Source: an uncultured Hyphomicrobiales bacterium
GTDB lineage: Bacteria; Pseudomonadota; Alphaproteobacteria; Rhizobiales; Xanthobacteraceae
Length of the DNA: 40,587 nt
Assembly: GCA_903839845.1 (NCBI GenBank)
Contig: CAIMEA010000102.1
Coordinates: 1 to 40,587, forward strand
Reading direction: 5' to 3'
The translations under genes were made by a program, and so were the position numbers. How positions within the stretch are numbered: position 1 is the stretch's first letter; each line of letters opens with the position of its first letter. Under the pieces are notes generated by a model, which saw only the letters and a program-made list of their open reading frames with translations, ran no database searches and had not been told where the DNA came from. Below are positions 8,952 through 22,412 of this stretch, one piece after another.

Positions 8952-10724
8952 CTATAACCCCTTCACCAAGCCGGCACCGATGAGCAGCCCGTTGAACCGC
9001 CGCGCCTCCGCGCCGCCCGCGCAGCGATAGAACTGACCACGGCAGCGCTGCAAAATGCGCTTCTGTTCGGAAAAGCTCGGGTCAAGCGGGACCCCCGCCG
9101 CTTCCTGGACGAGCAAAGGCAGGTACGGCGCCTCCAGCGTATCGAGCGCCGCGGTCATATCGACAGGCGTGAAGTTCAACGCGTCGACCGCATAATAGGT
9201 CGTGAAGTAGCGCGGGTCCTGCGCCTTGAGACGGCGCGCAAGCTCCAACTCGCTGATGGTCGGATCGACGATGCGCAGTCCGAAGTGCGGAAGATGATCG
9301 CCGTAACGCACGATCAGGAATGATTCACCCGGATTCTCGCGCGCCAGCCGTTCCAGAAACGCGCTGTAGTCGTGCGCCGTCATCCCTTGGCGGCGGATAT
9401 ATTCTTCCGCTTCCGGCGCATTGCCGAGATCGCGCCAATCCGGGGTCAACTCGGGACGCAGCCGCTTATCCCACGGAAAATGGTTGGCAACGGTGTACAC
9501 GTACAGAAAGAGCGGGCCATTCGCGCGTTCGTGGCGAACGATGTCAGCGGCCTGGTTGAAGTAAAAGCTGTCCGCCTCAAAATTGCGCGTGCCGAGGTCG
9601 CTCATGTCCAGATAGCGCTCGACCCCCGCCGTCGTCTGAAAAGCGCGCGAACCGAGAAATGCGCCGTAGAACGGATAAAGCGTGAAGGTCTTGTAGCCGC
9701 AATGGCTCAAGGACAATGGCAAGCCTCGGCCGACACGACCGGCGGCGATCCGCGTTACCGAAGTGGCGAAGCGGCCATAGGATCGGGACGCCAGACCGGT
9801 AAGCACGTTGTATTCGGTAAACCAGCTTGGGCCACCGGCGCCTTCCACGACAAGCTTGCGCGCTTTGCCGTCCAGCGACTGAAAATGACGATGATATCCG
9901 GCCGGCACTTTCATGCCGGGAACCGCGGTAATGTCAAAGTTCGATTCATCGTGCAGCAGAATAATGTGCGGCAGCTTCGTCCCGGGATTACACGCCGCGG
10001 ACGGCATCGCCTTCAGACTTTCAGCCGCAACCGCGTCAGATTCCAAGTAGCCGTGCGTCATGAGTTCGTGCAAGGACTCGACGCCCGTGCGCGCGATTTT
10101 TGAAATATATCGTTCGCCGTTGAAGTCCTCGGTGAGGCCGGTCGGAAAGTTCAGCGACAGGATAACAAGCCCGCTCATGACCGCCGAACCGCCAATAACG
10201 CAATTGCGTACGCGCAGGCGAAGTGGATCGAGCTTCCAGGCCGCAATCAACAGCGCGACCGTCATTACGGCGCCTAATGCAATCCAGCCCTTCAGCGACG
10301 GAATCGCTTTCAACAGAAATTCAGAGGTGTCCGTGTCGATGATCATCAAGTCGACGAAATCGGCGGTCATCCAGAGCATGTCGTACTTGAATCGGGACAG
10401 CAAAATAAGGGTGACGACGAGTTCGATCGAAATGATCGCCGCCACGACCGGACGCCGCAACAGTGCGAGCCAAAACAGGTTGAGCAGGATCCAGGCGAGC
10501 AGGAACGCTGTCTTGGCGACAAGATCGCCTTCGGTATCGGCCATGATGGTCAAGGCCGCCATATGAACGGCGGTGACGGTCCAAAGCGCCACCATATGGC
10601 GACGGGAAATCGCTCCGCCGGGCGCAAAGCGGCCGACCCAATCGGCGCCCATTGCGGACCAAGCGTCCAGGCGTCGTTTGCCGGAGGCGAACCTCGTGAC
10701 TTGTCCCGGCGTGCCGTCCGTCAA
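8952..10724 (-). CDS. Membrane sulfatase-fold transferase, LtaS/MdoB-like
   Basis: A 590-residue protein with about five N-terminal membrane helices (roughly residues 44-62, 72-89, 93-110, 145-163 and 175-192) and a periplasmic alkaline-phosphatase/sulfatase-fold domain from about 250. The metal and nucleophile residues of the LTA-synthase/phosphoglycerol-transferase group are visible: Glu260 in LLHDESNFD, Thr303 in SWFTEYNVLTG, His415 in VANHFPW, and Asp476-His477 in RYGDHLPH. Such enzymes move phosphoglycerol or phosphoethanolamine groups onto glycans or lipids. An OpgH-like glucan synthase lies 6 kb away, so decoration of periplasmic glucans is plausible. The start is a TTG (10724) with AGGAAG just upstream; ATG 10652 is the alternative. 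It follows the creatininase gene after 63 bases. Confidence 0.8.
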   Translation of the reverse strand: MTDGTPGQVTRFASGKRRLDAWSAMGADWVGRFAPGGAISRRHMVALWTVTAVHMAALTIMADTEGDLVAKTAFLLAWILLNLFWLALLRRPVVAAIISIELVVTLILLSRFKYDMLWMTADFVDLMIIDTDTSEFLLKAIPSLKGWIALGAVMTVALLIAAWKLDPLRLRVRNCVIGGSAVMSGLVILSLNFPTGLTEDFNGERYISKIARTGVESLHELMTHGYLESDAVAAESLKAMPSAACNPGTKLPHIILLHDESNFDITAVPGMKVPAGYHRHFQSLDGKARKLVVEGAGGPSWFTEYNVLTGLASRSYGRFATSVTRIAAGRVGRGLPLSLSHCGYKTFTLYPFYGAFLGSRAFQTTAGVERYLDMSDLGTRNFEADSFYFNQAADIVRHERANGPLFLYVYTVANHFPWDKRLRPELTPDWRDLGNAPEAEEYIRRQGMTAHDYSAFLERLARENPGESFLIVRYGDHLPHFGLRIVDPTISELELARRLKAQDPRYFTTYYAVDALNFTPVDMTAALDTLEAPYLPLLVQEAAGVPLDPSFSEQKRILQRCRGQFYRCAGGAEARRFNGLLIGAGLVKGL

Positions 10725-10787: not shown

Positions 10788-11579
10788 CTAGTGGCCCGGC
10801 AACCGCTGATTGTCCAGTAGTTGTTTGAGGACTCCGCCAGCGGTCTCGACGACAAGACCGATGATACGCTGCCCTAACTCCGCCGAAGCGGCCTGAGCGT
10901 CACCGATCACACCCATGTCAGCGAGCCGCCGATCGTCGCTCACCCAGGGCCATGTCACCCCCTTCTGCAAAATTGTCATGGCGACGGCTTCGCCATCGGG
11001 CGGGCTTTTCAACTGGGCAATACGGTCCTGGCGAACCAAATGCGGAGCAATCGCCAACATAAGAGATGTCTCGTTTTTGCCTCCGTGAATTTCCGGCAAC
11101 AATGTATGTCCGTCGACCGGCACCAATTCGGCGGGATGAAAGACGCAGGCATTGAGGCCGAAGTCGGCACGCAGGTCTTGAATCAGGGCCTCCAGAATTC
11201 CCCGGTTGCCGCCGTGGCCATTGATAATCATGAGATTACGCGCCGGCAGCGCACGGGCGATTTCGCGACCGAGATCACGCATCAAGGCCGTCATGCCCTG
11301 GATCGACAGCGACATCGTCCCGGGCGCCCATTCGTGCTCGCGGGCGAGGCTAATCGACATCGTTGGAAGCTGCCAAAGATCAAAAGATTCGCCCCAGCGG
11401 GCCATAATATGGCGGGTAAAGCCCTCAGCCAATACGACGTCGGTATTGAGCGGCAAATGGGGCCCATGCTGTTCGATCGAGCCGATCGGCAGACACAATA
11501 TCGACCTCTCGCTCACCCGTTTGGCGATTTCCAAGAAGGTAAGCTCGCCGATCGAACGACCCGCAACAGCGTTTGGCAT
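10788..11579 (-). CDS. Creatininase-family metal-dependent amidohydrolase
   Basis: A 263-residue member of the creatininase superfamily. The binuclear metal-site motifs are present: GSIEQHGPHLPLNTD near residue 33 (Glu, His, Asp), MIINGHGGNRG (His) and IHGGKNETSLML (Glu). The family includes creatinine amidohydrolase, MftE peptidase and ArfB, the archaeal deformylase that acts right after a GTP cyclohydrolase on 2-amino-5-formylamino-6-ribosylaminopyrimidinone phosphate. Its position directly after a GTP cyclohydrolase II gene on the same strand (73-base gap) and near a RibD-type reductase favours a role on a GTP-derived pyrimidine or pterin over creatinine breakdown. This functional reading is inference. 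Confidence 0.87.
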   Translation of the reverse strand: MPNAVAGRSIGELTFLEIAKRVSERSILCLPIGSIEQHGPHLPLNTDVVLAEGFTRHIMARWGESFDLWQLPTMSISLAREHEWAPGTMSLSIQGMTALMRDLGREIARALPARNLMIINGHGGNRGILEALIQDLRADFGLNACVFHPAELVPVDGHTLLPEIHGGKNETSLMLAIAPHLVRQDRIAQLKSPPDGEAVAMTILQKGVTWPWVSDDRRLADMGVIGDAQAASAELGQRIIGLVVETAGGVLKQLLDNQRLPGH

Positions 11580-11652
11580 GATCGTTACCGGCCCCTAGCC
11601 CCAGAGAATTCCAACCGCGGCAGTTGGCACGACGCCACCGTACCTGTCGATA

Positions 11653-12813
11653 TCAAGGTGCCAAGGCCGTCACGTCACGTTCGGCGTCCGACGCTTCGGC
11701 CAGAGAATTTGCAAGGTGATTAAGGCGGTGCCCGGCCCGGGCGGCCTTGGCGGTCAAATACCGACGATTGTCGGAATTGATAGGCGCCTCGATTGCCATT
11801 CTTCCCGTGATTTTGATTCCGGACTTGGCAAGGCCTTCGAGCTTGGCAGGATTATTCGTGAGCAGTACGACACGATCACATTGCAGCATTTGAAGCATGC
11901 GGGCGGCGACGCGGTAGTCCCGTTCATCGTCATCAAAACCAAGTGTCGTATTGGCATCGACCGTGTCGAGCCCGTCGTCCTGCATCTGATACGTTCGCAT
12001 TTTGTTGGCGAGGCCAAGCCCACGCCCCTCTTGCGCCAGATAGAGGACGACACCGCCACCCGTTTCTTCCAGAAATTTGAGCGCGAGATTGAGTTGATCG
12101 CCACAGTCGCATCGCCTCGAGCCAAAGACATCGCCGGTCAGACAGGCGGAATGCAGACGCACCAATACGGGTTCGGAGAAGTCCGGCTTTCCGACAATAA
12201 TCGCAACCTGACTGCCACCCATGGCATCGCGGAAAACGACAAAATCGGCGCGCGCGCCGGAATTGAGCGGCACGGCGGCTTTGCTGGCGATGGCAAGCGA
12301 CTCGATAATGTCGTCGGCGAAACGCGCAACCGCCTCCGCCCCGACGCTGACGATGCGGTGATCGAGCGCGCGTCCCGCGACAATGTCAGCGACCAAAACG
12401 GCAGGCAGGCCTTGCGACAATTTCGCAAGCTCGATTGCGGCCGAGGCCAGCGGACCCGCCGCGCTTGCGCCGGCCGGATGACTGGTTTTGGCGTCGGCCA
12501 CAAGCCTGAGAATCGTTGCCGCGTCGGGGTCCGCGCCTAAATGCAGGGCCACCGGCATCGTTGCCTTTAGACCGATCGCCTGCGCCCGGCGCGCCGTGAT
12601 GACGACGCGTGGAGCGATCGGCGCACAGAGCGCAGAAAATTCCGCCAGCCTTTGCGAGTCGAGCCCTTCCACCGGCAAAGCAAGAAGACGCTTGCCTTCG
12701 CCTGCGATCAACACCGGCCTTCGGGCGAAGAATTCTGCGACCGCCCGTTCGGCGCCGCTCTGTTCGCTCAACCCGAAAAATGCGGAAATCGGATCTCCGT
12801 TCGTCGCGTTCAT
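11653..12813 (-). CDS. ribA: GTP cyclohydrolase II with N-terminal extension
   Basis: The C-terminal half (about residues 190-370) is GTP cyclohydrolase II, which opens GTP to 2,5-diamino-6-ribosylamino-pyrimidinone phosphate, formate and pyrophosphate. The zinc cysteines are Cys224, Cys235 and Cys237 (HSACLTGD, then SRRCDCGDQL); the substrate region EGRGLGLANK, the DANTTLGF segment and LLTNNPAKLE are all conserved. The first 180 residues (FFARRPVLIAGEGKRLL onward) resemble the degenerate N-terminal domain common in alphaproteobacterial RibA. They lack the acidic DHBP synthase motif, so no RibB activity is expected. It could serve riboflavin, but its neighbours (methyltransferase, glycosyltransferase, PTPS homologue) suggest a dedicated secondary pathway. 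It is divergent from the RibD-like gene across a 148-base spacer. Confidence 0.9.
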   Translation of the reverse strand: MNATNGDPISAFFGLSEQSGAERAVAEFFARRPVLIAGEGKRLLALPVEGLDSQRLAEFSALCAPIAPRVVITARRAQAIGLKATMPVALHLGADPDAATILRLVADAKTSHPAGASAAGPLASAAIELAKLSQGLPAVLVADIVAGRALDHRIVSVGAEAVARFADDIIESLAIASKAAVPLNSGARADFVVFRDAMGGSQVAIIVGKPDFSEPVLVRLHSACLTGDVFGSRRCDCGDQLNLALKFLEETGGGVVLYLAQEGRGLGLANKMRTYQMQDDGLDTVDANTTLGFDDDERDYRVAARMLQMLQCDRVVLLTNNPAKLEGLAKSGIKITGRMAIEAPINSDNRRYLTAKAARAGHRLNHLANSLAEASDAERDVTALAP

Positions 12814-12961
12814 TTAGCCAACTTCCAGCCAAAATCTTCAATGGCGCAGTGCCATATGCTCTCATGGTAGAACACCGCAGCCCCTGTGACCATTCCGGTC
12901 GTAATGCCCATTATTTTGTGCCAGCCTGTTCTCAAGATCGATTGTTTGATAAGGCGCGCCG

Positions 12962-13786
12962 ATGCCGTTTGAGCCGATGTATAGACTAACGGCGCAGGCC
13001 AGTCCGGATGGAGGCGCCGATTCTTGGGGCAATTTCACGCAGTCTTTCCGGAACCCGGCCGCAGTCCTGCCCGCGCCCTGGGCCGACTTGTTCGAACCGC
13101 TGCGAACCGGGACGGTCGATAGCCAGGTCGTCATCGCGCAGATCGGCCAATCGCTCGACGGGCGCATCGCGACCGAAAGCGGACACTCGAAATACATCAA
13201 TGGGCCATCCGGTCTGGCTCATCTGCATCGGCTGCGTTCGCTGGTCGATGCAGTCGTCGTTGGTGTCGGAACGGCACTCGCCGATGACCCGCTGCTGACG
13301 GTGCGGCGGGTTGCCGGACCGCATCCGGCGCGGGTCGTACTCGACCCAAAAGGGCGGCTTCCGGCAAGCGCCAAGACATTCGCCAATGACGGCGTCCGCC
13401 GCCTCCTGGTAACGGCGCAAGGAACGACATGCGCGCTTTCCCCTGACGTGGAAGTTGTCACGTTGCCCGCCGCCGGCGGGCGTATCGATCCGCCCGCCAT
13501 CCTTGCCGCCCTCGCCGAACGTGGGTTGCGCCGCATCCTTGTCGAAGGCGGGGCCGATACGGTGTCCCGTTTCCTTGCGGCGGGGTGCCTCGACCGGCTG
13601 CACATTATTGTCGCGCCGATTATCCTCGGCAGCGGCCGCGCGAGTTTTGTCCTGCCACCGGTCGAGCGCGCCGATCAGGCGTTGCGCGCGCCGATGCGGA
13701 CCTTTCGGCTCGACGACGAGATCTTGTTCGACTGCGATCTGTCGGCTCAGCGGCTGCCCGTCGGCCGCGCGAAGAAATCGACGTGA
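12962..13786 (+). CDS. RibD C-terminal-type (pyrimidine reductase) protein
   Basis: A stand-alone reductase domain of the RibD/dihydrofolate-reductase fold, 274 residues, without the RibD cytidine-deaminase-like domain. Signatures: QIGQSLDGRIAT near residue 60, a GHSKYINGP segment, VVGVGTALADDPLLTVR, RVVLDPKGRLP and the NADPH-binding ILVEGGADTVSRFL followed by IVAPIILGSG. The first 50 or so residues form an extension not typical of the domain; a start at ATG 12977 is also possible. Known members reduce the ribosyl side chain of GTP-derived pyrimidines or reduce pterins. It is divergent from ribA and its last 40 bases overlap the convergent methyltransferase gene, so it is the only plus-strand gene in the cluster. 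Confidence 0.87.
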   Translation: MPFEPMYRLTAQASPDGGADSWGNFTQSFRNPAAVLPAPWADLFEPLRTGTVDSQVVIAQIGQSLDGRIATESGHSKYINGPSGLAHLHRLRSLVDAVVVGVGTALADDPLLTVRRVAGPHPARVVLDPKGRLPASAKTFANDGVRRLLVTAQGTTCALSPDVEVVTLPAAGGRIDPPAILAALAERGLRRILVEGGADTVSRFLAAGCLDRLHIIVAPIILGSGRASFVLPPVERADQALRAPMRTFRLDDEILFDCDLSAQRLPVGRAKKST

Positions 13787-14556
13787 CCGACACGCAATGA
13801 CGATCTTCCGGAATCCACCTCATCGCGCCGGAACGTCAACCATTCGACCGTGTCGGCCTGCGCTACGCTCGGCATGTCGCGCGCCGCACTCGCCCAGCCG
13901 GCGAAGATTTCCAGCTGAAACTCCCGGTCGAGCGGGCCAACGACCCAATCGGCCGTGCCACGAACGACCGAGCAACCCAGGGATTGGAATCGCGCGATCG
14001 CGGCGCTCGCCGCCATCGGCCCGAGCGCGGGACCAAACCCCTTGTCGCCGCGTTGATGCGCATTGACCGCCGCTATGATCGCGGCATCGAATGAATGGCG
14101 CGGGCTGATTTCAATTCGCCCGTCATAGCTCAAGGCTGCATAGATCGGGATCGACCGTGCCAGGGTTTCGACTGCCAGCCGATCGAGCCAAGGCTCGGAT
14201 ACGAGATCGAGCAGCGCCGAGGTGGTGACCAAATCGATCGGCCCATCAAGCGCGGCTTCAAGATCGCGGTTGAGGTCGAGCGGGATCGCCGTGACCGTGA
14301 CCCCCGATGGTCGGGCGGTGGCCGCCGCCCGCGCCAGCAGGCTGAGATCGTTGTCGGCGAGCCGCCAGTGCTGACCGGCGTAAAACCGAGGCGCCAGCGC
14401 GCGCAGAGTCGAACCGGTGCCGCACGCAAGATCGACGATCCGTATCGCACTATTGCCGGCCTGCGAGGCGACGACGGCGTCAAGCACCGCAGAATTGCGC
14501 GCGCGCAGATCATGCGGCTCGCGCAGTTCAAGCCAGTCGGCGGAAAAGCCGGTCAT
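13747..14556 (-). CDS. Class I SAM-dependent methyltransferase
   Basis: A 269-residue Rossmann-fold methyltransferase. SAM motif I is IVDLACGTGST (residues 40-50), followed by an acidic residue in WRLADND (end of beta 2), IPLDLNRDL, and the motif IV-like region PIDLVTTSALLDLVS. It is the last gene of a minus-strand run (dehydrogenase, PTPS homologue, GT4, methyltransferase); its ATG overlaps the glycosyltransferase stop as ATGA (14553-14556). Its 3' end overlaps the convergent RibD-like gene by 40 bases. The acceptor is unknown; pterin/pyrimidine or sugar methylation is inferred only from context. Confidence 0.83.
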   Translation of the reverse strand: MTGFSADWLELREPHDLRARNSAVLDAVVASQAGNSAIRIVDLACGTGSTLRALAPRFYAGQHWRLADNDLSLLARAAATARPSGVTVTAIPLDLNRDLEAALDGPIDLVTTSALLDLVSEPWLDRLAVETLARSIPIYAALSYDGRIEISPRHSFDAAIIAAVNAHQRGDKGFGPALGPMAASAAIARFQSLGCSVVRGTADWVVGPLDREFQLEIFAGWASAARDMPSVAQADTVEWLTFRRDEVDSGRSSLRVGHVDFFARPTGSR

Positions 14557-15605
14557 ATAGCGTCCTCAAGCGCCCGCGCAAACAGCTTCGCCGAATCCTG
14601 CCAGTTCGGAAGCGAGTGGGCTGCTTCGCGCGCCGCCGCCGTCATGCGGCGTCTTTCTTCCCGGTTTTCGATCACGCGGCGCAATGCTGCCGCCAGCGCG
14701 GCGGCATCGTCGGGCGCGACCAGCACCCCTGCCCCGGCCGGGACGGTTTCCGGGATAGCGCCCGCTGTCGTCGCGATGATTGGCAGGCCGCAGGCAATCG
14801 CTTCGGAAAAGACCATGCCGTAGCCCTCGTAATGCGAAGCCAGTGTGAACAGATCGGCGCCCGCGTAGAGTTCGGCGAGGCGCTCGCGCGATACGGCGCC
14901 GGGCACGGCAATCCGGCCGCCAAGTCCGTAACGCATTATATCCGCGTCCAGTTGCGCGGCCGCTTCGGGGTCGCGGCCGCGATCGCCGGCGATTGTCAAA
15001 TGCCAAGGCAGGTCGGTAAGCGTCGCCAGTGCGCCGATCAACACGTCAAATCCCTTGCGGGGGACGATCGCGCCGACCGCCAGCAAACGCACAATATCAT
15101 CGTTGCTTCCGCGCGCCGCCGCGACGGCATCGGTTCCCGGGCATGCAATGACGATGCGATCCTCCGGCACGCCGTAGTCGGCAACAAGAAGCCGGGCGGT
15201 CGTCGCACTCGTTACAACGACACGGATTGCGGCCGTCAGCGCTCTGCGTTCACTAGCAAGCAGGTCGCCGGCTTGCACCGCGCTTAGTCCCGTCTCGATC
15301 GCCAACGGATGATGCACGAGCGCGATCAGCGGATGATGCTGGCTGAGTTGCATCGCCACTTCGGGAAGAGCGCCAAAGGCGAGCCCGTCTATAACGATGG
15401 GACGTCCCGCGGGAATGGCTGCCAGCCGTTCCTGCGCTGTTTTACGTTGCTCCTGACTGGGGCGCGGAAAGCCGTCACCGAGATTGACGAGGTCGATCTT
15501 CCAACCGAGCTTCGCAAGCTCCACAATCATGTGCCGATCGTAGGCATAGCCCCCGGTCAGAGTCGCGAGATCGCCCGGCACCGCGAACGCGACGCGTCCT
15601 ACCAC
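14553..15605 (-). CDS. GT4-family glycosyltransferase
   Basis: A 350-residue GT-B fold retaining glycosyltransferase. The N-terminal domain opens with [21 protein letters not shown], a typical GT4 glycine-rich acceptor-side loop. The C-terminal nucleotide-sugar domain has [16 protein letters not shown] (about residues 178-193) and the E-x7-E motif with Glu260 and Glu268 in [18 protein letters not shown]. The start is GTG 15605, overlapping the upstream PTPS homologue stop by seven bases, so it belongs to the same transcript. A soluble glycosyltransferase within a GTP-derived cofactor set hints at a glycosylated pterin or related compound, as pterin glucosyltransferases do in cyanobacteria. 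The acceptor is not proven. Confidence 0.85.
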
Positions 15606-16000
15606 AATGCCGCCTCATACCAGGCACGCGCGACGTGCGACTCCGATAGCGTGACGCGGATCGCCTTGAGTTCGCGGCCATCGCGGCCGAGCGAACCCGC
15701 GCGGGCGGCGTCCGCCAGCCGGTCGTGGATATATTTGGTGAGAAACTCGGTGGTGGTGTTGACGCCCTTGAATTCCGGCAGCGTATCGAGATTGCCATAA
15801 TTAAGCGGTGCAAGCGTAGCCTTGAGCGCTTCATGCGCCCGTCCGATATCGATGACGATGCCGTTCACATCGAGCGTGTCGGCGATGAATGCCGCGTCAA
15901 TGACAAAGGTCGCGCCGTGCAACGCCTGCGCCGGGCCAAACACGGCCCCGCGAAAGGAATGAGCGATCATGATATGGTCGCGAACTTCGACGGCGAACAA
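15599..16000 (-). CDS. PTPS/QueD-like protein lacking canonical catalytic residues
   Basis: A 133-residue T-fold protein of the 6-pyruvoyl/6-carboxytetrahydropterin synthase family. I place the start at a TTG (16000) because AGAGG lies seven bases upstream and the family begins [11 protein letters not shown]; a TTG two codons earlier is too close to that site. Family features kept are His14 (MIAHSF), His28 in [27 protein letters not shown] and the pterin-anchoring Glu in [11 protein letters not shown]. The usual His-Gly-His is His-Gly-Ala (Ala30), the Cys four residues before it is replaced (Ala24), and the downstream Asp-His pair reads Leu-Asn. Zinc chemistry should therefore differ from QueD. 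It sits 17 bases after the dehydrogenase stop and overlaps the glycosyltransferase start. Confidence 0.8.
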
Positions 16001-16017
16001 GGGCAAACCTCTTTGGG

Positions 16018-17013
16018 TTAGGCGGCCGTTTCGGCCGCGGGGTAAACAACAAGCTGACAAAGCACGCCGCTCTTTGGCGCCAGCAAATCGGGCAGCCGCG
16101 CTGGCAGATCGTGGAATTTGATCGCAGGCGCGATCAGCGCATCGAGCCGGGCGTCCGCGAGCAAGTCAAGCGCCGCCGCAAGCCTGCGGCCGAAGCTCCA
16201 GCGTGGCCGGTGCGAGGGCGCGACCCGGCCGACCTGGCTGGATACGAGCTTGAGGCGGCGGCTATGGAATGCCCCACCGAGCGGGACCGAAACCTCGTCC
16301 GCGCCGTACCAGCTCATCTCCAACACGGTTGCCTCCTCGCCGGCAAGATCGATAGCGATCGCAAGGCCGGCGGCGGTTGCGCTGGCATGAACGACGAGAT
16401 CGCACTCACCCGGTGCGTTATGGGGCGACGCAAAGCTAACACCGAGTGCCTGCGCTAATTCCCTGCGTGAGGGTTCGACGTCAATCAAGGTTACCCGAGC
16501 GCCAGGAAGTTGGCCGCACAGCCAAGCGACCATCGAACCGACCACGCCCGCCCCGACCACCGCGATACGGTCGGCGGCTGCCGGACGCGCGTCCCACATG
16601 GCATTGAGCGCCGTCTCCATATTGGCGGCAAGCACGGCGCGACCGGGAGGCACGACGTCGGGTATGGGTATGACGGCGTCGGCTGGGATGTTGAAGACGC
16701 TTTGATGGGGATGGAGCGCAAAGACGAGGCGACCGTGAAGTCCTGCCGGTCCGCTCTCGACCCGTCCAACGGTGGCGTAGCCATACTTGACCGGAAACGG
16801 GAAATTGCCGCCCATAAACGGCACGCGCATGCGCTCAAATTCGCTCGGCGGGACGCGGCCGGTCAGCACCAGCCTTTCCGTGCCGCGGCTGATGGCACTA
16901 AACAGCGCACGGACCCGAACCTCACCCGGCCCGGGCTCGGCAAGCGGCTCATTGCGGATTTCGGCGCGCCCGGCGCCAACATACCACAGCGCGTCGGTGG
17001 CTCTGTCGGACAC
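16018..17013 (-). CDS. MDR-family dehydrogenase, BchC-like
   Basis: A 331-residue medium-chain dehydrogenase/reductase. The N-terminal GroES-like domain holds [17 protein letters not shown], a sequence shared with BchC (bacteriochlorophyllide dehydrogenase) and relatives rather than zinc alcohol dehydrogenases; I see no catalytic zinc Cys/His set. The Rossmann motif is [16 protein letters not shown] (about 148-163) followed by an acidic residue in LIDVEPS, suggesting NAD. It heads the minus-strand operon with the PTPS homologue, glycosyltransferase and methyltransferase. The start is GTG 17013. True bchC normally sits with bchXYZ, so I do not assign that symbol; oxidation of a hydroxyl on the cluster's own product is more likely (inference). 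Confidence 0.8.
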
Positions 17014-17096
17014 TTTTCTGATCCCGCCTTGGACTTTGTGATCGCGCTACGGGTATATCCTGAAAGGGACAAGAAAGCAGGAGGACGGCTAAAGTT

Positions 17097-18902
17097 ATGC
17101 CTGATCGTGTGGAAATGCTCTCGGCTACGGCGGAAGGCCCCGTCATGACCGTCCTTGCGCGCCGCCGGGCGCTGTTTGCCGCGCTTGTTGCCGCCACCAT
17201 GGTCGCGGTTCTGTGGCTGGCGACCGTGGCAGTCCCGCCACGCAGTTTCGGCGCCATCGCCTTCCTTTTGCTGTTCACCGTCACTCTGCCCTGGTCGGTG
17301 ATCGGTTTCTGGAACGCCACTATCGGCTTCCTGATCATGCGCTTTGCCCGCAACCCGGCCGCGGCCGTGAGCCCGCTCGCGACCAGCATCCGGGGCGACG
17401 AACCGGTGACCGCGTCGACGGCAATCCTGATGTGTATCCGCAACGAAAGTCCGGATCAGGTTACGCGCAATCTGCGCCCGCTGATGACCGGCCTTGTGGA
17501 AGCGGGTGTCGCACACCTGTTTCATGTCTATCTGCTCAGCGACAGCAGCGATCCCGGCATCATCGCCGACGAGACATCCTGCTTCGGCGCCTTTACCGCC
17601 AAATGGCAGGGCACAATTCCGGTCACCTACCGCCGGCGCGTCATCAACACCGCCTTCAAGTCCGGCAATATCCGCGACTTTTGCGACCGCTGGGGCAACG
17701 ATCATGACTTCGCCATCACACTGGATGCCGACAGCTTCATGCCGGCGGATGCTGTGCTACGGCTAATGCGGATCGCCCAGGCGAACCCGACACTCGGCAT
17801 ACTTCAGACATTGATTGTCGGGATGCCGTCGGTAAGCGTATTCGCGCGCGTGTTTCAGTTCGGCATGCGGCTCGGCATGCGCTCGTACACGCTGGGCGCC
17901 ACCTGGTGGCAGGGAGATTGCGGGCCGTATTGGGGCCATAACGCGATCATCCGCCTCGCACCCTTCATCGCTCATTGCCACATGCCGGTATTGCCCGGCA
18001 ATGGGCCGCTCAGCGGTTATGTTCTCAGTCACGACCAGGTCGAGGCCGTGCTGATGCGCCGAGCCGGCTACGAGGTTTGGGTTCTGCCGGAAGAAGGATT
18101 GAGCTGGGAAGAAAACCCACCAACGCTACTGGAATTCACCCGCCGCGATCTGCGCTGGTGCCAGGGCAATATGCAATATTGGCAGCTCCTGCGCATGCCG
18201 GGCTTAAAGCCCGTGAGCCGGTTCCAATTGCTGTTTGCGATCTGGATGTATCTCGGCTCGCCGGCGTGGATGGCGATGATGACACTCGGCACCGTCATGC
18301 TCGCCCTTTCCGACACGCCGTCGGCGCCCGCCATTCCGGTCAAGCCAAGCGCCGGTACCGTTCTGTTCGCGATCGTCATGCTGATGACGTTCGCGCCAAA
18401 AATCGCGAGCATCGTCGATCTGATGTGCCGCCGTCCCGCGCGCCGGTCCTATGGCGGCGCCGTCCCGTTCGTGCTGAACGTCGTCTGCGAAACTCTGTTC
18501 ATGGCCTTGCTGTCGCCGATCGTCGCACTTGCGCACACGCTTTTCCTGACCCGCCTGCTTGTGTTTCGACGTGCCGGCACCTGGAACAGCCAAACGCGCG
18601 AAAGCCATTCGGTGCCCTGGAGTCTCGCCGTCGCAAAGCTGTGGCCGCAGATGCTGACCGGCTGTGTCGTCCTCGGCATTGTCGTCATCAAGGCGCCAAA
18701 CGATATCGGGTGGGCGCTGCTGGGCACGGTGGGACTCATTCTAGCGGCGCCGTTTGCCGTCGCGACCGCCTCGCCGGCTATCGGACGTCTGTTCGTCCGA
18801 ATCGGCATCTGCCGCCTTCCAGAAGAGAAAAACGTGGCGGCCGCGCTGGCGCCGTTGCATCTCCCTGCGATCGAGGTCAACGCAGCCCCGGCGCGGGCTT
18901 AA
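17097..18902 (+). CDS. OpgH/MdoH-like membrane glucosyltransferase
   Basis: A 601-residue polytopic GT2 enzyme resembling OpgH (MdoH), which polymerises beta-glucan from UDP-glucose for osmoregulated periplasmic glucans. Two N-terminal helices (about 23-45 and 52-80) precede the catalytic domain: ILMCIRNES (109-117), LLSDSSD (146-152), the DxD motif in TLDADS (Asp210, Asp212), LSHDQVEA (about 310-317) and RRDLRWCQGNMQYW (349-362), the QxxRW-like acceptor motif. Further helices follow from about 375. AGGAGG lies 12 bases before the ATG; ATG 17115 is an alternative. It is somewhat shorter than E. coli OpgH and no opgG is in the window. It starts an operon with an FkbM methyltransferase 12 bases downstream. 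Confidence 0.87.
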   Translation: MPDRVEMLSATAEGPVMTVLARRRALFAALVAATMVAVLWLATVAVPPRSFGAIAFLLLFTVTLPWSVIGFWNATIGFLIMRFARNPAAAVSPLATSIRGDEPVTASTAILMCIRNESPDQVTRNLRPLMTGLVEAGVAHLFHVYLLSDSSDPGIIADETSCFGAFTAKWQGTIPVTYRRRVINTAFKSGNIRDFCDRWGNDHDFAITLDADSFMPADAVLRLMRIAQANPTLGILQTLIVGMPSVSVFARVFQFGMRLGMRSYTLGATWWQGDCGPYWGHNAIIRLAPFIAHCHMPVLPGNGPLSGYVLSHDQVEAVLMRRAGYEVWVLPEEGLSWEENPPTLLEFTRRDLRWCQGNMQYWQLLRMPGLKPVSRFQLLFAIWMYLGSPAWMAMMTLGTVMLALSDTPSAPAIPVKPSAGTVLFAIVMLMTFAPKIASIVDLMCRRPARRSYGGAVPFVLNVVCETLFMALLSPIVALAHTLFLTRLLVFRRAGTWNSQTRESHSVPWSLAVAKLWPQMLTGCVVLGIVVIKAPNDIGWALLGTVGLILAAPFAVATASPAIGRLFVRIGICRLPEEKNVAAALAPLHLPAIEVNAAPARA

Positions 18903-18914
18903 CCCAAGACCCAA

Positions 18915-19661
18915 ATGCTCGACGCATTCAGAACAGCGCGAGGAATTGTCCGGTCTTTATGGATCTATTATGGCGACCGGCAGCATGGTCCGGCCATGGA
19001 TCGGCTATATCGCCAGTTCGTGCGGCCGGGCGACCTTGTCTTTGACATCGGTGCGCATGTCGGCGACCGCATCGCCGCATTCCGGCGGCTGGAAGCGCGG
19101 GTGATCGCAGTCGAGCCGCAGCCCGCGCTGATCAAGACGTTGCGCCTGCTCTATGGCCGCGACCGGAATGTGACCATCGAGGCCGCCGCGGTCGGACGTG
19201 AAGAAGGCGTCGTCGAGCTTAACGTCAATATCGATAATCCGACAGTCTCGACCGTCTCACGCGATTTTATCGCGGCCGCGGCCGACGCGCCGGGCTGGCA
19301 CGACCAGGCATGGCCCAAGCGCGTGCGTGTTCCGCTGACAACCATCGACGCATTGATCGCACGTCACGGCATCCCTGCCTTTATCAAGATCGACGTCGAA
19401 GGCTTTGAAGCCGAGGCGCTCGCCGGTCTCGGCCGGCCGGTCCAAGCCCTATCGTTCGAGTTCACACTGATCCAGCGCGATGTTGCGCATGCCAGCCTCA
19501 AGCGCTGCGGCGCGCTCGGCTACGCGCGGTTCAACGCAACATTGGGCGAAAGTCAGAAATTCGAGCACGCCGACTGGATCGGCATGGACGGCATTGCACG
19601 CTGGGTTGACGGATTGCCTCTCGACGCCAATTCCGGAGACATCTATGCGCGCATGGACTGA
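18915..19661 (+). CDS. FkbM-family SAM-dependent methyltransferase
   Basis: A 248-residue methyltransferase of the FkbM group. SAM motif I is VFDIGAHVGD (42-51), followed by VIAVEPQPAL (beta 2), VEAAAVG-type segment IEAAAVGREEG, and the family hallmark FIKIDVEGFEAEAL. FkbM proteins O-methylate sugars or other secondary-metabolite hydroxyls. It lies between the OpgH-like glucosyltransferase and two GT-C-like membrane proteins and overlaps the next gene by 17 bases, so methyl decoration of the glycan made by this operon is the simplest reading (inference). Confidence 0.88.
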   Translation: MLDAFRTARGIVRSLWIYYGDRQHGPAMDRLYRQFVRPGDLVFDIGAHVGDRIAAFRRLEARVIAVEPQPALIKTLRLLYGRDRNVTIEAAAVGREEGVVELNVNIDNPTVSTVSRDFIAAAADAPGWHDQAWPKRVRVPLTTIDALIARHGIPAFIKIDVEGFEAEALAGLGRPVQALSFEFTLIQRDVAHASLKRCGALGYARFNATLGESQKFEHADWIGMDGIARWVDGLPLDANSGDIYARMD

Positions 19662-20964
19662 ACCCGTCCGGACCGCGCTGCTGATTGCCGCAATGACAGC
19701 CGCGGGCCTCGCGCTGACGCTTTACGTATTCTATCCCGGCGTCACGACTTTTGACGCGCTCTATCTTTACAAGGATATGACCAAAGGTTTTTTCGGCGAC
19801 TGGCAATCGCCGGCGATGATCGTGCTGTGGTCATTGGTCGACCCGATCGCGCCCGGGACGGCAAGCATATTGATCCTGACCGTGGCGCTCTATTGGTCTG
19901 CTTTCGCGGTCATCGCTCTGACGATTGCGCAACGGTCTTTTTGGCTTGCCGTCCTCGTGCCGGTGCTTGCTTTGTCGCCGCCCACTTTCATTCTCGTCGG
20001 TATCATATGGCGTGATATTCTATTTGGTGTGGCGTGGCTGTTGGCGGCCGGTCTTGTCTATAGCGTTGCCGATTGCCGCCGGCCCGTGCGCATTCCGGTG
20101 CAGTTCATTGCGTTTGCGCTGCTCGCCTTCGGCGTCCTGTTGCGGCCGAATGCGCTCGCCGCCGCCCCTCTGCTCTCGGCCTATGTGCTGTGGCCCGCGC
20201 GCTTTGCCTGGAGGCGTGCCGCGCTCCTTTACGTGCCCGCGGCTCTTGGCCTCTTCGGCCTCGTGCAGGTCGTCTATTATGACGTGCTGGGCGCAGCGCG
20301 GCAGCATCCGCTGCACTCGATCATGGTTTTCGATCTCGGCGGCATATCTCATTTTTCCAAACAGAATGTATTTCCCGGCGCCTGGACCGCGGATGAGAGC
20401 CGCCTCATCACGGATGGTTGTTACAAACCGCTGGCGTGGGACATCTATTGGACCCAGCAGCCGTGCCTGTTCGTGATGGAGCACCTCGAAAAGCGTGACA
20501 AATTCTTCGCCGCGCCTGCTCTGACCGAAGCCTGGCAGCGCGCCATCGTCAGCCACCCGGTCGCCTATCTCATGCACCGCGCCGACTTCATGTGGACATT
20601 TCTTTTCGGTAGCGAGAACATGACGATGTGGACGCGGGACCTCGACGATCCATCGGCGATCATATTCGCGGATAATCCGAGGCTGATGGCGCTAAAGACG
20701 CTGAACGATGCCCTCAAGCCAACGCCGTTGTTACGGCCCGGCACATGGCTGATGATCGACGCCGCCGTGTGCCTGCTCGCCTGGCGGCGGCGCGACACCC
20801 CGCCGGGCGCCTTTGCGCTGGGCATCGGCGGATCGGCCGTCCTGTATTTGCTGACGTTTTTCGCGGTCGGTGTCGCCACGGATTATCGCTATGCCTATTG
20901 GGCGGTACTCGCCGGTCTCACCGGCGCGGTCGCCGTTGCGGTCGAGCGGCGGACTGCGACATGA
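19645..20964 (+). CDS. Polytopic membrane protein, GT-C-like, unknown acceptor
   Basis: A 439-residue integral membrane protein with about ten hydrophobic segments. I place the start at ATG 19645 (GGAG at 19634-19637), inside the end of the FkbM gene; the longer frame upstream is only overlap. After the first helix comes the segment YPGVTTFDALYLYKDM, then FGDWQSPAM. This acidic first loop is characteristic of lipid-linked-sugar (GT-C) transferases, with a second acidic loop in IIWRDILFG. A soluble stretch of roughly 130 residues (about 235-365) precedes the C-terminal helices. No closer family is recognised. Its stop overlaps the next start (ATGA, 20961-20964). Confidence 0.75.
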   Translation: MRAWTEPVRTALLIAAMTAAGLALTLYVFYPGVTTFDALYLYKDMTKGFFGDWQSPAMIVLWSLVDPIAPGTASILILTVALYWSAFAVIALTIAQRSFWLAVLVPVLALSPPTFILVGIIWRDILFGVAWLLAAGLVYSVADCRRPVRIPVQFIAFALLAFGVLLRPNALAAAPLLSAYVLWPARFAWRRAALLYVPAALGLFGLVQVVYYDVLGAARQHPLHSIMVFDLGGISHFSKQNVFPGAWTADESRLITDGCYKPLAWDIYWTQQPCLFVMEHLEKRDKFFAAPALTEAWQRAIVSHPVAYLMHRADFMWTFLFGSENMTMWTRDLDDPSAIIFADNPRLMALKTLNDALKPTPLLRPGTWLMIDAAVCLLAWRRRDTPPGAFALGIGGSAVLYLLTFFAVGVATDYRYAYWAVLAGLTGAVAVAVERRTAT

Positions 20965-22412
20965 GTGCCGCCGACAAGATTTGTCCGGCGTGGCGCGGCC
21001 TATACATCCTTTGCGTCACAGCCGGGATCGCCGCAGCCATTCTTTATATCGCGATCGGATTATCGTCGGGTCTGCAAGTGTTCGGCGACGGGTCGATCTT
21101 CTCATACGCCGTCGCGGCGCGCGATGCATGGGCGTTTCACTGGCACAACATTCCGGGCCGTCTATTCACTTATGTCTTCGCCTATGTTCCGGCCGAAACC
21201 GCGGTCACCCTGACCGGCAACGCGCGCGCCGGCATCTTCATCTATGGATTGCTGTTTTTCTCCGCGCCCCTTCTCGGTCTCCTTCTGACGCTGGCGGCCG
21301 ATCGCACGACCGGCCGCGGCATTTTTGGCTATGCCTGTCTTTCGACCGCTTGCCTTCTGCCACTGGTGTTCGGCGCGCCGACGGAAATGTGGACGGCGCA
21401 TACGCTGTTCTGGCCGGTTCTCGCAATCTGTCTTTGCGCCCCAAACAGACCGCGTGGCGCGGTCGCCGTGTTTGCCGGGCTGCTGGCGCTCGTGTTCACC
21501 CATGAGGGCGCCATTGTTTTTGCAGCGGCGATACTTTTTGCGTTATTTCTGCGTGGCTGGCGCGACCGGATTTTTATAAGGGCGACCGCCGCATTTATCG
21601 TCGCGATGATGATCTGGCTGGTCGTTCGACTGACCGTGCGGCCCGACGACTATATTGCCGGCGTTCTGGCCGCGGCCGCGTTCAAATTCATCGACGTCAA
21701 GAATCTGGACCAGCCAGCCTTCCTCGTATTGCTCGCGACGCTGGCCGGCTATGGCGTTGCTGTCGCTTTGCTTCGGCTGATCGATACGGAGAAAACTTAT
21801 ATTTACGCGGCACTTGTCTGCGCGGCCGCCCTCGCGATTTATTGGATCGCGTTCGACAGGACGCTGCTTGCCGAGGCGAGATACGATTTGCGCACGGTCC
21901 TGCTGATCGCGACGCCCGTGCTAGGCGTTCTGGCGACGGTGTCTGCAATGCCGGACGAGGCGCGGCAAAAGTCTCCCTTTCCTTTCCTGGCGCCCGTCGC
22001 ATCGGCACTTGAAAAGAATTCGAATGCGAGCCTGATCTCCGGCGCAATCCTGCTGATACTGCTCGTCCACGTCGTCGAGACCGCAAAATTTGTCCGGGCG
22101 TGGGCCGACTATAAAGCGGCGGTGCGCTCACTGGCGAACGGCGCGGAGGCCGACCCGGTCCTCGGCGATCCGCAATTCGTCTCGGCGCAACGGATCGGCT
22201 CCAGCCTCAACCGGCTCGCATGGAATTCGACGACGCCGTATTTGTCGGTGCTCTTCGCCCCCGATCTCAAACCGGGTCGTCTCGTGGTCGATCCGGACGC
22301 GGGCTATTTCTGGCTTTCCTGCGCCACCGCCAAAGCGAGCGAAATGACCAGCACCGGCATTCCGCAAGAAGCCTTGCGTCTCGTCCGAACGCACGCCTGC
22401 CTGCACCGCTAG
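20961..22412 (+). CDS. Polytopic membrane protein of unknown function, GT-C-like
   Basis: A 483-residue membrane protein with about ten hydrophobic segments. The ATG at 20961 overlaps the stop of the previous membrane protein; the longer upstream frame is not used. The first helix (YILCVTAGIAAAILYIAIG) is followed by a loop with FGDGSIFSYAVAARDAW and NIPGRLFTYVFAYVPAE, compatible with, but not proof of, a GT-C-type transferase. A C-terminal periplasmic tail contains GYFWLSCATAKA. As last gene of the OpgH/FkbM operon it probably assists assembly or export of the same glycan. I do not recognise the family. Confidence 0.72.
   Translation: MSAADKICPAWRGLYILCVTAGIAAAILYIAIGLSSGLQVFGDGSIFSYAVAARDAWAFHWHNIPGRLFTYVFAYVPAETAVTLTGNARAGIFIYGLLFFSAPLLGLLLTLAADRTTGRGIFGYACLSTACLLPLVFGAPTEMWTAHTLFWPVLAICLCAPNRPRGAVAVFAGLLALVFTHEGAIVFAAAILFALFLRGWRDRIFIRATAAFIVAMMIWLVVRLTVRPDDYIAGVLAAAAFKFIDVKNLDQPAFLVLLATLAGYGVAVALLRLIDTEKTYIYAALVCAAALAIYWIAFDRTLLAEARYDLRTVLLIATPVLGVLATVSAMPDEARQKSPFPFLAPVASALEKNSNASLISGAILLILLVHVVETAKFVRAWADYKAAVRSLANGAEADPVLGDPQFVSAQRIGSSLNRLAWNSTTPYLSVLFAPDLKPGRLVVDPDAGYFWLSCATAKASEMTSTGIPQEALRLVRTHACLHR

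Follow-up and report, generated by a model that had tools for sequence, protein, structure and literature searches.

The 40,587-nucleotide contig CAIMEA010000102.1 (assembly GCA_903839845.1), referred to as the window, derives from an uncultured Hyphomicrobiales bacterium and carries seven genes packed in 6.2 kb. They encode a creatininase-family hydrolase, GTP cyclohydrolase II (GCHII; here RibA), a RibD-type reductase (RibD_C), an S-adenosylmethionine (SAM) methyltransferase, a GT4-family glycosyltransferase, a protein of the 6-pyruvoyl-tetrahydropterin synthase (PTPS) fold and a BchC-like dehydrogenase. Profile scans with Pfam, applied to 20 open reading frames (ORFs) of the window, and with NCBIfam found all seven at the positions and in the families given by an initial annotation of the sequence. 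The cassette to which they belong is real, conserved and, as far as we searched, undescribed; parts of it have been noticed before, and the outline of a pathway is plausible. Its features are listed below (contig coordinates; the genome of the window is designated G000).

10788..11579, minus strand: creatininase-family metal hydrolase, 263 aa (PF02633, 182.6 bits)
11653..12813, minus strand: RibA, GTP cyclohydrolase II, 386 aa (PF00925, 180.9 bits at residues 178-339; N-terminal part without Pfam match)
12814..12961: divergent intergenic region between RibA and RibD_C, 148 bp (from ORF coordinates)
12962..13786, plus strand: stand-alone RibD_C reductase without deaminase domain, 274 aa (PF01872, 149 bits, the sole Pfam family)
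13747..14556, minus strand: class I SAM methyltransferase (PF13649, Methyltransf_25, 34.4 bits, cut-off 27)
14553..15605, minus strand: GT4-family glycosyltransferase, 350 aa (PF00534, Glycos_transf_1, 124.3 bits)
15599..16000, minus strand: PTPS-IV-type T-fold protein, FGPAQ...HGA (PF01242, 73 bits)
16018..17013, minus strand: BchC-like MDR dehydrogenase, 331 aa (TIGR01202, 42.2 bits, below the cut-off of 291.25)
17014..17096: divergent intergenic region between the dehydrogenase and MdoH-like genes, 83 bp (from ORF coordinates)
17097..18902, plus strand: MdoH/OpgH-like membrane GT2 glycosyltransferase of cassette type (NF003963, 685.7, cut-off 884; NF003958, 507.4, cut-off 419)
18915..19661, plus strand: FkbM-family methyltransferase, a frequent but optional partner (PF05050, 59.6 bits)

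The strand layout indicates that the seven genes are not one operon. The dehydrogenase, PTPS-like, GT4 and methyltransferase genes form a minus-strand run in which neighbours overlap slightly or are separated by short gaps; RibD_C, on the plus strand, lies tail to tail with the methyltransferase gene, and the RibA and creatininase genes are again on the minus strand. The PTPS-like gene probably starts at the TTG at 16000, which is preceded by AAAGAGG, and not at 16060 as in the ORF list. The set reaches past the seven genes, as the MdoH-like gene starts on the plus strand 83 bp from the dehydrogenase gene and is followed by the FkbM gene.

Conservation of the cassette and its membrane end-modules

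A scan of named genomes with the PTPS-like protein gave at least 552 confirmed relatives, of which the best 80 were kept; this set of alpha- and betaproteobacterial loci leans to close relatives, and some loci are cut by contig ends. In a phylum-wide draw of 398 genomes, 61 had a match: 27 (E 1.5e-47 or better) were kept as PTPS-positive, and 34 (E 8e-14 to 2e-8) were excluded as QueD or other PTPS. The 27 genomes minus the window's own constitute the 26-locus sample, and "near" denotes a distance within 6 kb of the PTPS-like gene. Plasmid records contained 20 PTPS matches, and eight of these loci were examined. The negatives were the first 20 listed of the 337 genomes without a match, a non-random choice drawn entirely from the window's family or order, and they were compared for the dehydrogenase, methyltransferase, RibD_C, MdoH-like protein and GCHII.

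The best-80 loci carry near the PTPS-like gene the GT4 gene (80/80), the dehydrogenase (77), the MdoH-like gene (74), the methyltransferase (69) and RibD_C (58), followed by RibA (38), an ABC transporter gene of the type seen in locus L041 (30), FkbM (23), cytochrome b561 (16) and the creatininase (11). The corresponding numbers in the 26-locus sample are 26 for the dehydrogenase, 25 for GT4, 24 for the methyltransferase and 22 for RibD_C, with CDP-alcohol phosphotransferase at 12, LPG_TM and RibA at 11 each, the MdoH-like gene at 9, FkbM at 8, and creatininase and b561 at 6 each. Most of the seven-gene set is a conserved cassette, and RibA (11/26) and the creatininase (6/26) are optional parts. 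The co-occurrence of all seven genes expected from the initial annotation thus held for the core and not for these two, and its gene list, correct as far as it went, left out the MdoH-like membrane enzyme found in 74/80 loci.

Whole-genome comparison gave the same association. The dehydrogenase was present at E 1e-30 in 27/27 PTPS-positive and 0/20 negative genomes, and cluster-type RibD_C in 24/27 and 0/20 (Fisher p values of 1e-13 and 2e-10, respectively, which ignore relatedness). The RibD_C matches in the positives were at E 1e-70 or better, and the best match in a negative genome was at 5e-29. The cassette methyltransferase was found in 25/27 genomes (absent from G217 and G200) and in none of the 20 negatives; in the 47 genomes searched, its family was met only with the cassette. 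Cassette-type MdoH-like proteins, defined by at least 44% identity to that of the window, were present in 11/27 genomes including its own (44–53% identity in the ten others) and in 0/20 negatives, where no protein exceeded 37%. By this simple Fisher test, the co-occurrence of the dehydrogenase and RibD_C with PTPS-IV is far beyond chance. For RibD_C it is also not merely physical, because G016 retains the gene at ~62 kb from the PTPS-like gene. In G280 and G392, the cassette-type MdoH-like gene likewise lies away from it.

The cassette occurs in alpha-, beta- and gammaproteobacteria and in actinomycetes. A plasmid of Streptomyces fungicidicus (L101) carries CDP-alcohol phosphotransferase, dehydrogenase, PTPS, GT4, methyltransferase, LPG_TM, creatininase and ribA genes close together, and a Microbacterium plasmid (L108) has a similar set with RibD_C. 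Versions were also found on plasmids of Rhizobium (L104), Thiodictyon (L105, Gammaproteobacteria), Palleronia (L107) and Methylosinus (L103). Two Streptomyces linear plasmids (L102 and L106) present a second context, in which PTPS-IV stands without other cassette genes near genes for MBL-fold, cupin, sigma-factor and BTAD-regulator proteins. In G217, the dehydrogenase gene is in two pieces, one with an internal stop (C1 3776779-3777724, L109), and neither the cassette methyltransferase nor a cassette-type MdoH was found in the genome; this cassette is perhaps decaying.

The gene facing the dehydrogenase differs between lineages. In the 26-locus sample it is MdoH-like in 8 loci, a CDP-alcohol phosphotransferase in 12 and neither in 6, never both; four loci (L127, L130, L132, and L134) have an MdoH-like match farther off besides the phosphotransferase. 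No CDP-alcohol phosphotransferase was found near the cassette in any of the best-80 loci. The full family motif is present in 16/16 copies from the 34 plasmid and sampled loci, and Pfam confirmed CDP-alcohol phosphotransferase in 4/4 and LPG_TM in 3/3 of the proteins tested. LPG_TM is near the phosphotransferase in 11/12 sampled loci. One phosphotransferase searched against the PDB gave no match, and the matches to PgsA and archaetidylinositol phosphate synthase were weak and below cut-off. In a quick tree of dehydrogenase, PTPS and GT4 sequences (60 rows: 32/34 plasmid and phylum-sample loci, 27 of the best 80, and the window), a single change separates the two end-modules, with seven rows lacking either module left uncounted, and the window falls in the MdoH branch. 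A third end-module was sought by eye in nine loci without MdoH or CDP-alcohol phosphotransferase, and no common upstream gene was seen; two genomes with such loci are G280 and G392, whose cassette-type MdoH is encoded at a distance. Most simply, the existence of two alternative end-modules suggests that the last steps of product formation take place at the membrane or beyond it.

Two regions flanking the set were also inspected. Downstream of the FkbM gene, two long hydrophobic proteins without Pfam match are encoded on the plus strand (19480-20964 and 20745-22412); by eye, they are possibly membrane glycosyltransferases. Downstream of the creatininase gene, a sulfatase-family membrane protein (8952-10724, minus strand) was rejected as a cassette part, since L003, the closest relative, is the only one of the best-80 loci in which it adjoins the cassette. 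A sulfatase match is also present in L027, elsewhere in the locus.

Residues and relatives of the cassette enzymes

The PTPS-like protein belongs to the T-fold superfamily by its Pfam match (73 bits) and by its predicted structure (predicted local distance difference test score, pLDDT, of 84.5). The nearest structure is 3d7j (SCO6650 of Streptomyces coelicolor; E 1.3e-17, 59% identity), and the matches to true PTPS or QueD structures are at E 1.4e-7 and weaker. Similarly, a profile of the family gave 182.6 bits to 3d7j and at most 27.3 bits to true PTPS or QueD, and the score against the QueD model was 29.8 bits (cut-off 89.25). Residue positions were set by HMMER alignment to 1b66 and 3i2b. 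In 81/81 rows, HGA replaces the HGH zinc motif, Ala the catalytic Cys and Tyr the His of the Asp–His dyad. The dyad Asp is Asn in 78/81 rows, the others having Asp (L016), Thr (L023) and Lys (L078). The plasmid and sampled loci keep HGA in 34/34 rows and never have His at the dyad position, although the pair is more variable there. A role as 6-pyruvoyl-tetrahydropterin synthase or QueD was rejected on these replacements, and the premise of the initial annotation that PTPS acts on pterins does not transfer to a family in which all 81 and 34 rows read have substitutions at the catalytic Cys, the His and one of the zinc-binding His. Judged by its sequence, the protein is not a PTPS but kin of SCO6650. 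The 3d7j entry was released in 2008, and its record still reads uncharacterised protein. The structural work on SCO6650 of that year reportedly found neither zinc nor a catalytic triad, saw no PTPS activity and described pocket residues suited to a pterin-like ligand.

The FGPAQ signature, present in 81/81 rows, and the PF00925 and PF01872 neighbours in the window place the protein in the PTPS-IV (SCO6650) group. The AGeNNT paper of 2017 reported PF00925 and PF01872 near PTPS-IV together with the FGPAQ signature from 561 sequences (PMC5445326). Its section on the PTPS-IV cluster mentions neither the dehydrogenase, GT4, methyltransferase nor membrane end-module, and contains no pathway proposal. 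PF00925 is labelled there as GTP cyclohydrolase I/FolE2, whereas the Pfam name is GTP_cyclohydro2, and the conclusion in that text that FolE2 lies in the PTPS-IV neighbourhood is probably a mislabel. The name PTPS-IV is used inconsistently, since another paper applies it, citing unpublished work, to an F420-related archaeal group (PMC5041015, in its passage on the group). No description of the pathway was found in the open-licence papers searched, a collection that omits most subscription papers. The initial suggestion of an undescribed pathway holds as far as these searches go, except that the GCHII/RibD_C neighbourhood was partly reported in 2017.

The nearest PDB entries to the RibD_C profile are the riboflavin-pyrimidine reductases 6p8c and 2azn. 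The window protein has the RibD_C domain only and is thus not a bifunctional RibD. Three RibD_C matches were found in G000: that of the window, a RibD-like gene on contig C167 and a weak one (52 bits) on C4. The C167 gene is a 369-aa ORF with a deaminase-like N-terminal part and a riboflavin synthase-like ORF alongside, and a RibB-type protein is encoded on C226 (both by eye). Riboflavin genes are thus also present outside the window, and the window group is not a housekeeping riboflavin operon.

RibA retains the cysteines CLTGDVFGSRRCDCG and the Tyr in KMRTYQMQ, which we take to be the zinc ligands and the catalytic residue. Its NCBIfam scores are 225.4 for NF001591 (cut-off 148), 196.7 for TIGR00505 (cut-off 205.85) and 330.5 for NF006456 (cut-off 464). 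By eye, the RibBA on C226 lacks the GCHII zinc cysteines. A further GCHII homologue on C81 (22272-22703; loci L002 and L088) adjoins a DUF1688-like ORF (by eye), and the two are probably the uracil catabolism pair URC1/URC4. A strong GCHII match was defined by our own cut of E < 1e-45 to PF00925. In the window's family, such a match is present in 4/4 PTPS-positive and 0/8 PTPS-negative genomes; the latter (G035, G111, G159, G287, G289, G335, G365, and G384) have only RibBA-like (~1e-23) and URC1-like (~1e-13) matches. These relatives seem to manage without a strong GCHII, as none of the eight carries one. RibA as a purely housekeeping enzyme was rejected on this ground, despite the degenerate RibBA on C226. 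In five f51 genomes (G395, G308, G050, G314, and G086), a stronger, shorter GCHII is present besides the cassette-type one, which in G086 lies on a separate contig with the creatininase and an MdoH-like gene.

The catalytic Tyr is conserved in 36/38 rows of proteobacterial cassette RibA, and also in L072 by eye; L038 is cut by the contig end. Among 13 further proteobacterial rows, 9 have it and 4 (L104, L121, L122, and L123) fall outside the pattern. The Streptomyces cassette L101 differs from that of the window in three respects: a CDP-alcohol phosphotransferase takes the place of MdoH, the catalytic Tyr of GCHII is replaced by Met, and no RibD_C was found within the stretch. The same change of Tyr to Met in SCO6655 of S. 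coelicolor reportedly gives a formylated product. By analogy, the Met-type GCHII of L101 and the adjoining creatininase gene would fit a formyl intermediate.

In the creatininase-family protein, EQHGPHLPL.TD and NGHGGN, presumably the metal-site motifs, are conserved in 12 rows, as expected for the family of BrbF and ArfB; the score against the ArfB model is 24.6 bits (cut-off 180). It is the sole family member found in G000 and probably a formamidase of the ArfB/BrbF kind, as far as its sequence allows. BrbF (SMc02977) deformylates the GCH product in Sinorhizobium and Brucella, and the account of it states that the GTP-opening partner is not known there (PMC9478397, 2022). The absence of a strong GCHII in 8/8 PTPS-negative relatives fits the unidentified GTP-opening enzyme sought in that account. 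In a tree without SMc02977, the window protein groups in a single clade with 11 further cassette copies from alphaproteobacteria. The f51 cassette copies and the clade common among the Rhizobiales genomes searched fall elsewhere; branches are long and deep joins unsure. The separate positions of the alphaproteobacterial, f51, G280 and Streptomyces copies point to repeated recruitment, subject to the same long-branch warnings. The CobW P-loop motif, used as a marker of BrbF loci, was found in 0/30 short loci, so that the Rhizobiales clade could not be assigned to BrbF.

The dehydrogenase has conserved SRGTE and PVKYGY motifs, and its TIGR01202 score of 42.2 bits, against 291.25 needed, does not support an identification as BchC. 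The predicted structure of the methyltransferase (pLDDT 94.3) matched only general class I methyltransferases in a fold search. GT4 is near PTPS in 80/80 best-80 and 25/26 sampled loci.

A proposed pathway and its alternatives

We favour, at slightly better than even confidence, a cassette dedicated to making a pyrimidine or pterin compound from GTP, which would receive methyl and sugar groups and be completed at the membrane. Gene content, conservation, co-occurrence and residue changes were observed, and the reactions and product are proposed from them. RibA, its residues intact, would open GTP to 2,5-diamino-6-(phosphoribosylamino)pyrimidinone as known for its family, with another source where the cassette RibA is absent. 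The optional creatininase-family enzyme could strip formate from any formylated form in the manner of BrbF/ArfB, and RibD_C, judging from its nearest solved relatives, may reduce the ribosyl to a ribityl chain before any deamination. The PTPS-fold protein and the BchC-like dehydrogenase would then act on the ring and side chain, closing or modifying them in a non-PTPS reaction, and the cassette methyltransferase and GT4 would decorate the compound. Finally, the MdoH-like enzyme, from its position, may add or extend a sugar and hand the product across the membrane; in other lineages the CDP-alcohol phosphotransferase, mostly with a flippase-like protein, would act in its place. The paralogues, namely the RibD-like gene on C167 and the second GCHII of the five f51 genomes, argue for a dedicated role. 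The dedicated pathway of the initial annotation is retained as a RibD-type reductase, often with GCHII, accompanying the PTPS fold, methyltransferase, GT4 and dehydrogenase, and without RibA and creatininase as fixed members. We infer only that the product may be the glycosylated pterin named there. The pteridine glycosyltransferase of Chlorobium tepidum, described as acting on L-threo-tetrahydrobiopterin (PMC5683033), shares with this proposal the idea of a glycosylated pterin.

Several observations weigh against this proposal. Both RibD_C and RibA are missing within 6 kb in 21/80 best-80 loci; 17 of these are Roseibium/Labrenzia loci in which the sequence continues for 10 kb on that side, and in 3 a contig end is close. 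Cluster-type RibD_C is absent from G392, G382 and G086 (G086 is cut by a contig end), and 4/27 PTPS-positive genomes (G262, G095, G265, and G392) have no strong GCHII. The 21 loci, together with the genomes without strong GCHII or RibD_C, mean that the first three steps are not universal near the cassette. The two PTPS-positive genomes without the methyltransferase, G217 and G200, are of the window's own family. Profile, PDB and fold searches gave no substrate clue for the methyltransferase or GT4. Moreover, the usual Amadori route to a pterin is not open to a reduced ribityl chain. Lastly, the window RibA is, by eye, the only riboflavin-type GCHII with zinc cysteines in G000, and as the sole intact enzyme of this type it may also serve riboflavin in a shared role. 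The case considered in the initial annotation, that this ribA/ribD pair is the only riboflavin source, is thus contradicted for the reductase by the C167 gene but not for RibA.

This last point leads to an explanation we consider unlikely, in which RibA and the creatininase are riboflavin entry steps beside an unrelated glycan or lipid cassette, and RibD_C is a spare riboflavin reductase. The degenerate RibBA on C226, the presumed URC-type homologue on C81, the single creatininase in the genome and the 21 loci without RibD_C and RibA near PTPS are in its favour, as is the role of BrbF as a Rhizobiales riboflavin enzyme (PMC9478397, from its account of BrbF). Against it, RibD_C tracks PTPS-IV (24/27 versus 0/20 genomes) though a RibD-like gene exists elsewhere, all eight cassette-less genomes of the same family lack a strong GCHII, and RibA or creatininase genes recur in the cassettes of distant lineages including Streptomyces.

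The alternative end-module suggests a membrane lipid or lipid-linked redox carrier, to which we give little probability. Here the CDP-alcohol phosphotransferase would attach a ribityl-phosphate pyrimidine or pterin to diacylglycerol phosphate, and the lipid would be flipped; in the MdoH branch the compound would be glycosylated instead, and b561 would exchange electrons with it. It is consistent with the full motif in 16/16 phosphotransferase copies, the LPG_TM gene in 11/12 sampled loci, the weak matches to PgsA and archaetidylinositol phosphate synthase, and cytochrome b561 in 16/80 best-80, 6/26 sampled and 2/8 plasmid loci. Nevertheless, the window's branch has MdoH, the best-80 loci lack a CDP-alcohol phosphotransferase near the cassette, and b561 and the phosphotransferase never occur together in the 26-locus sample. 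An extended form, just as doubtful, would be a membrane-anchored GTP-derived redox cofactor whose head group is joined to lipid by the phosphotransferase in actinomycetes and several proteobacterial lineages and turned outward by the flippase-like protein; in the window's branch MdoH would have taken over later with a glycan-based function, and b561 would be the electron partner in some lineages.

Equally improbable in our view is an exopolysaccharide or glucan cassette, in which the MdoH-like protein, GT4, FkbM and a glucan ABC exporter make a glycan that the small-molecule enzymes decorate. The MdoH-like gene (74/80), FkbM (23/80) and the ABC gene (30/80, the L041 copy passing the glucan-exporter model) would suit it; against this, 18/26 sampled loci have a substitute for MdoH at that position or lack it there, and the dehydrogenase, PTPS, GT4 and methyltransferase persist. 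In addition, OpgGH periplasmic glucan synthesis, with which the window shares the MdoH-like membrane glucosyltransferase, differs in its MdoG partner, as G000 gave no match to MdoG (PF04349). This family was found in 13/19 genomes searched and was absent from G000, G047, G012, G297, G287 and G289, the last two being PTPS-negative relatives. Given the lack of an MdoG match in G000, ordinary periplasmic glucans are an unlikely product of the MdoH-like gene. A natural product of known type, such as a toxoflavin-like azapteridine or a deazapurine, is very improbable: GCHII, a RibD-type protein and a methyltransferase are a combination also present in toxoflavin clusters, but RibD_C lacks the deaminase domain, GT4, PTPS-IV, the dehydrogenase and the membrane enzyme are left unexplained, and the Pfam scan of 20 ORFs, made without a dedicated sequence search for tox genes, showed no additional tox-like gene.

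On the favoured proposal of a dedicated cassette, its own copies of riboflavin enzymes and a PTPS fold without the known catalytic residues predict a metabolite class, of pterin- or flavin-precursor type, that has not been described before. The membrane end-modules narrow the search for this product, and the gene context makes the substrate of the 3d7j-type protein directly testable.

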